From: Candidatus Absconditabacterales bacterium
GTDB lineage: Bacteria; Patescibacteriota; Gracilibacteria; Absconditabacterales; Absconditicoccaceae
Direction of reading: 5' to 3'
Assembly (NCBI GenBank): GCA_023228925.1
Contig: JALOAF010000002.1
Location: 1 to 64,000, forward strand
DNA length: 64,000 bases
How positions within the stretch are numbered: the first letter of the stretch is position 1; every line of letters starts with the position of its first letter. Below, piece after piece: positions 15,326 to 18,710 of the stretch. The translations under genes and the position numbers were made by a program. Under the pieces are notes generated by a model that was given only the letters and a program-made list of their open reading frames with translations, was not told where the DNA came from and searched no databases.

Positions 15326-17527
15326 ATGGCTATATTTAAAGTAAAAAAAAGAAACTGAACAATTGTAGACTTCAATATTTCCAAAATACAAAAAGCCATA
15401 AAATTAGCTATAGAAGCTGTTTGAGGGACAGATTTTTCTAAAATAGGCGACATTTCTGAAGCTATTGTAGAATTGATAGAAAAAAAATCTGGCAAAAATA
15501 TCCCTGATGTAGAAACCATCCAAGATAGTGTTGAAGAAATTTTGATCAAACAGTGACACGACACTGTTGCTAGAGCTTACATTAAATATCGTGAAAAAAG
15601 AGCACAAAGTAGAGCAGCACAAAATGTAGTAGTAGAAGTATGAAAGACTATGCAAGAATATTTAGACAATCTAGATTGGAGGATAAATGAAAATGCAAAT
15701 ATATGATATTCTATTTGAGGACTAATATTAAAAAACAGCGAAAAAATTACCGCAAATTATCGACTTTCACATATATATTCAGAAGAAATCGGAAATGCTC
15801 ATAGAAATGCTGATTATCACATACACGATCTATGAATGTTTACTCCTTATTGTGCTGGATGGAGCCTAAGAGCTTTGTTAGAAGAATGATTTAATGGTGT
15901 TGATGGGAAACTACAATCAGCTCCTCCAAAAAATCTACAAGCAGCAGTAAACCAAATGATAAACTTTTTTGGAACACTACAAAATGAACGAGCTGGAGCA
16001 CAAGCATTTAGTTCTTTTGACACATATCTTGCTCCTTTTGTACACAAAAAATGGGAAGAAATAGAAAATGAACTTAATGATCTATGAGTAAAATTTGAAT
16101 CAGAAGAAAAAAAGAAAGACTATATTTACCACAAAGTCTATAAATACGTAAAACAACAATTACAAAACTTTATTTTTGGACTAAATGTACCAAGCAGACG
16201 ATGAACTCAAACCCCGTTTACAAATATCACTTTAGATTGGGTTTGTCCACCAGACCTAAAAGAAAAAGCACTAATGCTTGGTGGTTCCAATGCTGGCTAC
16301 TACAAAAAAAAGTTTGGAGAATTAGAGCAAGAAATGCATATAATAAATAAAGTTTTGATAGAAGTATATACTGAATGAGATCGAGGTGGCTCTGTTTTTA
16401 CTTTCCCAATACCTACCTACAATATTGTGGAGAATTTTCCTTGGGATGAGCCTTTAGTAGACGATTTATTTGAAATGACAGCTAAATATGGAATTCCATA
16501 TTTTCAAAATTTCATAGGATCTCAATACGAAAAAGATGAAAATGGCAAGATTACACAAACAAAAAAAGAATGAGCTTATAGTCCAGATGCAGTTAGAAGT
16601 ATGTGTTGTAGACTACAGCTAGATCTAAAACAACTAGAAAAAAGAGGTTGAGGTTTGTTTGGATCTGCAGAAATGACTGGAAGTATCGGGGTTGTTACTA
16701 TCAATGCAGCTAGACTATGATTCAATTTTAAATGAGATATGGATGGACTAAAAGACCAATTATTATATCTCATGAATCTAGCAAAAGATTCTTTGGAAGT
16801 CAAAAGGAAAGAAATGACAAAACGATTGGATGCTGGGCTATTTCCTTATACAAAAAGATATTTAGCCACTTTTAGAAACCACTTTTCTACTATTGGAATA
16901 AATGGACTAAATGAAGCCATTCTAAACTTTACAGACGGAAAAGAAGATATTAGCACAAAAAAATGAATCAAACTAAGTCAAGAAATATTAGATTTTATGA
17001 GAGATATTTTGATAGAATATCAAGAAGATACATGAAATTTATATAATTTAGAAGCTACTCCAGCAGAATGAACTACTTATAGATTTGCAAAAGAAGACCA
17101 AAAACAATTAAAATGAATTATTCAGGCTGGTACTCTCCAAGCTCCTTACTATACAAACTCCTCACAATTACCAGTGTGATACACTGATGATGTATTTGAA
17201 GCGATGGATTTACAAGACGATTTACAGTGTAAATATACATGATGAACAGTCTTACACTTGTATATGTGAGAAAGAATGAGTGCAGATGCATGTAAAGCAT
17301 TAGTAAAAAAAGCTATATCAAATTATCATATGCCATACATATCTATATCTCCAACGTTCTCAATTTGTCCAAAACATTGATATATAGCTGGAGAACATGA
17401 TTATTGTCCAGTATGTGACAAAGAAATATGATATACCGGTGAAAAGTTTGATATGGAAACAAGAAAAAAATATACAAGCGATCCAGAAAAATTAGACAAA
17501 ATCAGAAGAGAATGAAAAGTAGAATAA
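15326..17527 (+). CDS. nrdD: anaerobic (class III) ribonucleoside-triphosphate reductase, large part lacking the glycyl-radical domain
   Basis: 733 residues. Reduces NTPs to dNTPs without oxygen. An N-terminal ATP-cone (about 1-95), the barrel with active-site Cys region SMCCRLQLDL, and the zinc motif ICPKHGYIAGEHDYCPVC are seen. In ordinary NrdD the RVxGY radical loop follows the zinc site; here the protein ends GKVE-TAA without it, and the motif is in the next gene 100 bases downstream in a different reading frame. Many TGA codons at glycines. The large subunit alone should be inactive. Confidence 0.93.
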
Positions 17528-17627
17528 AAATCAGTTAATCAATAAATAAAAAACATATCAAAACAATCTTTCAAAAAAACCAAGAAAACTAATCATACCC
17601 TTTTTATTAAATTAATATACTACAACA

Positions 17628-17873
17628 ATGAATGAAGCAAAAAGAACAAAATGTCTAGTTTACACTAGAGTAATGGGATATTTGTCTCCAACCTACAGAT
17701 ACAATCTTGGGAAAAAATCTGAATTTTATAGTAGAAAGTATTACAACAAAGTAAAAGCAGCTAATCATGATTTTATATTACAATATGGAAGTGCTTGTGG
17801 AAGCTTGGAATTCAGCGCAAATACAAACTTAATAAAAGGGGCTGCTCAAGCTATTACAATCGACGCAGAATAA
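17628..17873 (+). CDS. stand-alone glycyl-radical domain of class III ribonucleotide reductase
   Basis: 81 residues containing TRVMGYLSPTYRYNLGKK followed by SEFYSRKYY, the RVxGYxxP...GKxxEF signature of the NrdD C terminus; the radical Gly is the one in VMGY (GGA codon). All five glycines are GGN, none TGA. It has its own ATG, is out of frame with nrdD, and the 100-base gap has stops in the nrdD frame, so readthrough is excluded. By analogy with autonomous glycyl-radical cofactor GrcA/YfiD, it probably docks onto NrdD and is activated by NrdG. The last 40 residues (ILQYGSACGSLEFSANTN) do not match the usual end. Confidence 0.85.
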   Translation: MNEAKRTKCLVYTRVMGYLSPTYRYNLGKKSEFYSRKYYNKVKAANHDFILQYGSACGSLEFSANTNLIKGAAQAITIDAE

Positions 17874-17999: not shown

Positions 18000-18710
18000 A
18001 TGAAAATCTCTGGAATCCAAAAAAGCACCACTATAGATTATCCAAACAAATTAGCCTGTGTAGTATTTACCATGGGATGTAATTTTCGTTGCCCTTTTTG
18101 CCACAATCCAGAATCTGTGTTGCCAGAGCAAATGAAATTAATTCAAAATGACCTAATTCCTGATCAGGCAATATTTAATTTTTTGGAAACAAGAAAAGGA
18201 AAGCTGGATGGCGTAAGTATTTGTGGTTGAGAACCCACACTACAAGCAGACTTATATGATTTTGCTAAAAAAGTAAAAGAAATGGGATTTTTAGTCAAGT
18301 TGGATACAAATGGCCGTGATTGTGAAATTGTCAAAAAAATGGTAAATGATAAAATTTTGGACTATGTAGCTATTGATCTAAAACACACAAGAGACAAATA
18401 TGATATTGCAATATGACTAAAACAAAACAACAATTTCTTTGATAACTACGATTGTTTATTAAAATTTTTGTTAAAATGAAATATTGATTATGAATATAGG
18501 ACAACAGTTGTTAAATGAATGCACACATTAGATGATATAGAACAAATGGCAAAATATATTTCTGGAGCAAAAAATTTTTATTTACAAAATTATGTTTGAG
18601 GAAATACCTTAGATCCAAATTTTTGATGACAATCCTTTTCTGATGAAAAACTAGAAGAAATGTGTAAAATTGCCAAAAAATATGTTCAAAATTGTGGAAT
18701 TAGAAAATAA
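18000..18710 (+). CDS. nrdG: radical SAM activase of anaerobic ribonucleotide reductase
   Basis: 236 residues. Uses a 4Fe-4S cluster and SAM to put the glycyl radical on the reductase. Starts MKISGIQKSTTIDYPNKLA, followed by the cluster motif GCNFRCPFCHNPE (CxxxCxxC) and ICGGEPTLQ (second Gly of CGG is TGA). It matches the longer NrdG2 type (about 230) rather than E. coli NrdG (154). The frame is open further upstream but the family N terminus fixes this ATG. Confidence 0.93.

Follow-up and report, generated by a model that had tools for sequence, protein, structure and literature searches.

The window, i.e. the whole 64-kb stretch of DNA analysed here, very probably encodes a class III (anaerobic) ribonucleotide reductase (RNR) composed of two separately translated polypeptides, the smaller of which would be activated by NrdG and dock into the larger core. 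Ribonucleotide reduction is essential. In the proposed mechanism, the core and the small open reading frame (ORF) would be translated as two proteins. The large polypeptide would provide the ATP-cone, the catalytic barrel, the thiyl-radical cysteines and the zinc motif, and NrdG would turn a glycine of the small polypeptide into a radical; the loop of the small subunit would then insert in trans into the core barrel, and catalysis would start. The small protein is best read as an obligate radical subunit.

The split nrdD locus of the window

The ORFs of the window were read with genetic code table 25, in which TGA encodes glycine. The NrdD core (alpha, 733 aa) is encoded on the plus strand at 15326..17527, an ORF with 26 in-frame TGA codons, and consists of an ATP-cone (aa 5-93) and the NRDD barrel (aa 122-700) without a radical loop. 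It matches the Pfam families PF03477 (ATP-cone, 71 bits) and PF13597 (NRDD, 535 bits) as well as NF006126/PRK08270 with 977.7 bits (cut-off 548). At E <= 0.001, Pfam called only PF13597 and the ATP-cone, and the class II large-chain domain PF02867 was not matched. The cysteine pair C427-C428 of the finger loop (16604..16609, plus strand), which lines up with the CC in the NrdD chain of T. maritima, and C176 (15851-15853, plus strand) are invariant in 24 cores. From NrdD biochemistry, we take C427-C428 to be the expected thiyl-radical site and C176 the second expected active-site cysteine. The motif CPKHGY...CPVC (C681 to C697; 17366..17416, plus strand) was recognized by sequence and conservation, C681, H684, C694 and C697 being invariant in 24 aligned cores; family membership points to a role in zinc binding. 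The C-terminus reads ...SICPKHGYIAGEHDYCPVCDKEIGYTGEKFDMETRKKYTSDPEKLDKIRREGKVE, and the stop codon comes 3' of the zinc motif without a preceding RVxGY. Hence, the statement of an earlier note on this DNA that nrdD ends after its zinc motif without a radical loop is correct, the NRDD match of the core ending at position 530 of 562.

The glycyl-radical domain is found on a gene of its own at 17628..17873 (plus strand), as read from the ORF, the Pfam match and the alignment. This gene has its own ATG, lies in frame +1 relative to the core and encodes 81 aa (MNEAKRTKCLVYTRVMGYLSPTYRYNLGKK...) with the loop motif TRVMGY. It matches positions 531-562 of the Pfam NRDD model and the core positions 1-530, the score of the small ORF, 24.2 bits, being just below the 26.2 cut-off; by this measure, core and small ORF together are one complete NrdD. 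The predicted radical glycine G17 (codon GGA, 17676-17678) is invariant in 25/25 aligned small proteins, in line with the earlier claim of a separate, out-of-frame radical gene, and so are R14, M16, Y18, N26, G28, K29, K30, E32 and R36. The same holds for C9, which precedes the radical glycine by eight residues, is not universal in fused enzymes and might complete the core zinc site (CPxH...CPxC) and aid docking. Only PF13597 was called for the small protein, and PF01228, the radical domain of the pyruvate formate-lyase type, was not matched (Pfam, E <= 0.001).

Core and small ORF are separated by a 100-nt spacer (17528..17627, plus strand) with stops in all three frames. In and just before it, stops occur in the frame of the small ORF at 17520, 17547 and 17613 and in frame 0 at 17525 and 17543. 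The radical SAM activase NrdG (NrdG2 type, 236 aa from its ATG) is encoded downstream on the same strand at 18000..18710; it matches TIGR02495 with 187.8 bits (cut-off 131.15), and its ORF is open further upstream, to 17886. No second NrdD core, radical domain or fused NrdD was found within the 64 kb of the window.

Conservation among close relatives

Using the core as query, 27 loci were retrieved from the genome collection, three of which break off short of the gene's 3' end. The split is the same as in the window in all 24 relatives that reach this end, with a separate ORF carrying TR[VC]MGY after the core stop. Their record titles include SR1, Gracilibacteria, Moraniibacteriota and Uhrbacteria, and both code-25 and code-11 readings occur among them. 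The spacers from the core stop to the first ATG measure 12-222 nt, a range that leaves aside L008 (core ORF broken near its start) as well as L015 and L020 (first ATG inside the core), and the small ORFs of the window and its 24 relatives are spread over the three frames as 8/7/10. Compared with the nearest relative (locus L001, genome G001), the small gene has a dN/dS of 0.081 and the core one of 0.055, values that indicate purifying selection on both. A second, full-length nrdD next to a decaying copy, which would have been another explanation, is present neither in the window nor in G001.

G001 harbors, besides the split pair, a second radical protein of 67 aa on another contig (L036:2532-2735, contig 63), between ORFs that by eye resemble ATP synthase subunits. 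It is possible that this protein is a true spare.

Distribution of the split within the phylum

In a sample of 286 genomes taken from the phylum of G001, NRDD matches occur in 70, which were assigned to 37 split and 33 fused cases. The split number is a hand count of 32 loci plus G051, G176, G161, G113 and G001, and the fused number comprises 31 loci (30 genomes), G172 (locus read) as well as G201 and G133 (Pfam span only). An extra free radical domain beside fused NrdD occurs in two of the 33 fused cases, G248 and G285; in G285 the fused NrdD is followed by an 88-aa protein (L043:3150-3416) that contributes a second radical loop and has cysteine pairs of its own.

In the class of G001, the radical domain was detected in 50/145 genomes, 49 of which also have a core match. 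None of these 49 core matches extends beyond position 535 of 562, hence no fused enzyme was seen in this class. Two radical proteins were found in only one of the 50 genomes, G001 itself. Among 48 loci from this class, the radical ORF is situated 3' of the core in 45 and 5' of it in one (G308); the remaining two are G380, where the small gene is present and no core was found in the locus, and L118, which represents the same place as L061. Both L061 and L067 were read as split. In most of the loci read, NrdG is encoded close by and in the same orientation. In 36 of 101 split loci, counted over overlapping sets with some records included twice, the frame of the small gene extends without a stop into the core.

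A tree built quickly from 68 cores, 43 of them split, requires at least five changes between the split and fused states, at least three of them forced by starred branches, and none of 500 label shuffles gave as few changes. Six probably intein-bearing loci and the partial or odd L068, L100, L101, L108 and L109 were left out. Because of long-branch warnings for L071, L103 and L089, the tree was used solely for the question of more than one origin; on this sequence evidence, the split arose more than once. Class I/II large subunits were not matched in 36 of the 60 genomes examined, among which metagenome-assembled genomes (MAGs) may be incomplete, and were matched in the other 24, where split NrdD is therefore not the sole RNR.

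Radical proteins unlinked to the core

A different arrangement was found in the class of G161. In G161 one contig carries the core at 144981-146756 (plus strand) and the radical protein at 113616-114050 (minus strand), and in G113 the two are on separate contigs; the radical proteins of these genomes, 145 and 146 aa long, are alike in their neighbours. The alignment of the ~145-aa protein was matched by 23 of the 117 genomes of the class, and all counts given here refer to these 23 and not to the other 94. A whole free protein is present in 18. In 11 of the 18, the core ends at profile position 529 or 530 and the radical protein lies at a distance of over 30 kb or on a separate contig; in the other seven (G248, G443, G445, G446, G475, G481 and G486), the core runs to position 562, i.e. 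is fused, and the free protein comes in addition. Five further genomes possess the fused enzyme only. The complementarity between core and radical protein is exact in all 23 genomes. Proteins of ~145 aa unlinked to nrdD were noted at L038:2614-3051, L040:2299-2739 and L042:2156-2590.

The N-terminus of the ~145-aa protein is probably an ATP-cone, which would here be joined to the NrdD radical loop. This reading comes from the Foldseek ranking and the VIA-align Z, the best Foldseek E value of 0.053 being non-significant and the model having a pLDDT of 69.9 and a pTM of 0.47; Pfam did not call an ATP-cone in this N-terminus. To our knowledge, ATP-cone and NrdD radical loop have not been met before in one protein without the nrdD barrel. 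A protein search with the ~145-aa protein gave at least 7721 matches among 7999 scored.

Other bacteria and viral records

The small gene was also detected in plasmids of Proteobacteria and Campylobacterota, among proteins bearing Bacteroidota names, and in viral records. Two tblastn searches returned 28 and 29 plasmid records with the radical domain, some of them on a fused gene. Core, then a gene of 58-66 aa annotated as nrdD, then NrdG is the order in Sulfuricurvum kujiense, C. necator H16 and Bradyrhizobium japonicum, and profile matching revealed the order core, small gene and NrdG in C. metallidurans CH34 and P. denitrificans, as well as fused nrdD in Acidiphilium and Actinomyces. For CH34, the accessible text of a published study names NrdDG as Rmet_5137 and Rmet_5139 and makes no mention of 5138 (PMC2864759). 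A protein search with the small radical proteins yielded at least 7999 candidates, all at E <= 0.001; the best 120 are 50-109 aa long, mostly 54-63, and among the matches listed are some Flavobacterium proteins named anaerobic ribonucleoside-triphosphate reductase and Bacteroidota-named proteins of 54-56 aa. The idea that the split is peculiar to the phyla considered in the earlier note is therefore not supported. A restriction to Absconditabacteria is likewise ruled out, given the SR1, Gracilibacteria, Moraniibacteriota and Uhrbacteria loci and those of other CPR, Proteobacteria and viral records.

Small radical proteins served as queries for the viral loci, some records being retrieved twice by different queries; the motif is present in 121 of these 139 loci and lies in a short complete ORF in 116. 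Among 45 whole viral records, which may be fragments, 44 have an NRDD match and two (G509 and G523) a barrel match. The radical domain without the barrel was thus found in 42, 41 with the radical domain only and G519 with an additional weak match at 503-529. Some of the viral radical proteins belong to phrog_4132, listed in PHROGs as function unknown. A tblastn search of a phage collection found no match for P0057 or for a radical protein of L164, two records for that of L239 and 14 for that of L132, the latter including annotated full nrdD genes. The viral contig locus L136:1601-4020 carries a split NrdD in which the core ORF overlaps a 58-aa radical ORF. Of two viral loci with an apparent core beside the radical domain, L136 is the one whose core is real, the other (L143) being due to the length filter. 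Furthermore, G501, an 80-kb viral record lacking an NrdD barrel, encodes at L124:5998-6411 a 137-aa protein related to the ~145-aa one.

Discussion

The proposed two-piece enzyme shares the barrel, zinc motif, radical loop and NrdG partner with the one-piece NrdD of P. copri (8p23), T. maritima (4u3e/4coi) and phage T4 (1h78), to which the window sequences match with E values of 2.7e-39 to 6.8e-13, and the ATP-cone of its core is of the P. copri type. In the one-piece enzymes, however, the radical domain is part of the core chain, whereas it is found on its own gene in the window. According to the accessible text of PMC11226230, P. copri NrdD showed an ordered radical domain in the presence of ATP and no detectable one with dATP. 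Since the domain is mobile even in this one-piece enzyme, a detached version is mechanically plausible. An AlphaFold model of core and radical domain as one chain (L002) reached a mean pLDDT of 67.7 with a 45-row alignment, the radical loop being at ~30 and not docked; this model is given no weight here.

GrcA/YfiD and T4 Y06I, which serve pyruvate formate-lyase as spare radical domains, carry only a glycyl-radical segment like the small protein of the window; the comparison with GrcA was drawn in the earlier note and holds in part. GrcA supplements a full-length enzyme and has its kin in PF01228, whereas the small protein is homologous to NrdD (PF13597) and is the sole copy of the domain in the window. 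The window core lacks a radical domain, which should make the small protein an obligate subunit and not a spare, and here the comparison fails. It may hold with regard to exchange, for which the unlinked subunits, the fused enzymes with an extra protein (7/23 genomes) and the second radical protein of G001 leave room; the free proteins beside fused NrdD in the seven G161-class genomes are the closer parallel to GrcA. In the accessible part of PMC8683613, YfiD serves as the precedent for exchange after oxygen cleavage of pyruvate formate-lyase, and the existence of spares for other glycyl-radical enzymes was a speculation in 2021. By analogy, it is plausible that a small subunit which oxygen has cleaved at the glycine would be replaced by a new one and the large subunit spared.

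The most serious alternative, to which we would give nearly an even chance, is a permanent two-piece enzyme, with a neutral split and a small subunit that remains bound without exchange or repair. It agrees with the lasting adjacency of the two genes in the group of the window, where only one of 50 genomes has two radical proteins. It does not easily account for the free radical proteins beside the fused enzyme in seven genomes and the extra ones in G285 and G001; moreover, the viral records with the radical domain but without the barrel (42/45) suggest use in trans. Supply in trans is also supported by the relatives, because they hold unlinked, reordered or extra radical proteins. Going further, the radical domain might be an interchangeable module that has been detached repeatedly, is supplied in trans and is replaced after oxygen damage, with an ATP-cone of its own in one class of relatives, through which ATP/dATP could control the delivery of the radical as such, and with lone phage copies reviving the oxygen-cut reductase of the host; we put forward this wider scheme only tentatively.

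An ordinary one-piece NrdD could also result if both ORFs were joined on expression by bypassing, frameshifting, readthrough or RNA/protein splicing. This is very unlikely, although core and small gene adjoin in nearly all loci of the window's group and the open small frame in 36/101 split loci would allow a frameshift to join them. In the window, stops in both frames at the junction mean that neither a single frameshift nor one readthrough would yield a fusion, so that both were ruled out there. Spacer length, sequence and frame vary among relatives, the gene order is reversed in G308, and the genes are unlinked in 11 genomes of the G161 class. Pfam detected no intein domain in the window core, and an Rfam scan found nothing up to E 1 between 15000 and 19000, i.e. 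no intron or other RNA family.

It has also to be considered that the radical glycine might reside in the core itself, e.g. as the G of the zinc-motif HGY, which would leave the small protein as a repair factor only. Work on C. necator H16 NrdD reportedly names Gly-650, and residue 650 of the C. necator H16 core is indeed the G of CPTHGY. We regard this explanation as highly improbable, since fused relatives have the zinc-motif HGY plus RVxGY downstream, and only RVxGY corresponds to that end of the NRDD profile which holds the radical loop. Finally, the chance of a decaying gene or an assembly error, such as the frameshift considered in the earlier note, is practically negligible: the contigs are metagenomic and the collections mostly MAGs, but the split recurs in 24/24 independent relatives under purifying selection (dN/dS 0.081), and finished plasmid records have the identical gene order.

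The two-polypeptide reading is thus the one we prefer. Points to be set against it are G380, where a small gene was detected and no core, and the class I/II large-subunit matches in 24 of 60 genomes. The database nrdD genes of 54-66 aa, for example WP_011154154.1 of C. necator H16, represent the same small protein between core and NrdG; their names come from pipelines. The small gene is therefore already known under the label nrdD, and the split is wider than first supposed. No description of a free-standing NrdD radical subunit was found in the accessible text of the literature searched (including PMC9531940, PMC12288474, PMC12386605 and PMC11194802), in which subscription papers are thinly covered. 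A database NrdD that seems to miss its radical residue may have it on a gene of 54-81 aa, adjacent or distant. The arrangements form an apparent series from the fused enzyme, via fused enzyme plus free radical protein, to a core depending on the free protein, which bears on the question of spare-part repair among glycyl-radical enzymes beyond pyruvate formate-lyase. Further interest is added by the free forms, which probably carry an ATP-cone, and by the viral copies. Culturable strains, among them Cupriavidus necator H16, have the split version, hence the question is directly testable.

Other RNRs are also known in pieces. The split class II enzyme NrdJa/NrdJb is likewise encoded by two genes with a zinc-finger-bearing C-terminal piece (accessible part of PMC9669993), but it differs from the NrdD of the window in RNR class and cofactor. 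Phage nrdD genes are broken by introns, inteins and insertions (accessible part of PMC3653736); these breaks are mostly due to inserted elements at other places, whereas the break in the window isolates the radical domain and its spacer is without such an element. Among CPR sequences, the nrdD ORFs of L069, L070, L104, L105, L106 and L107 are 1025-1557 aa long with an interrupted NRDD match, and the interruptions are probably inteins; L069 and L070 are additionally split at the radical domain.
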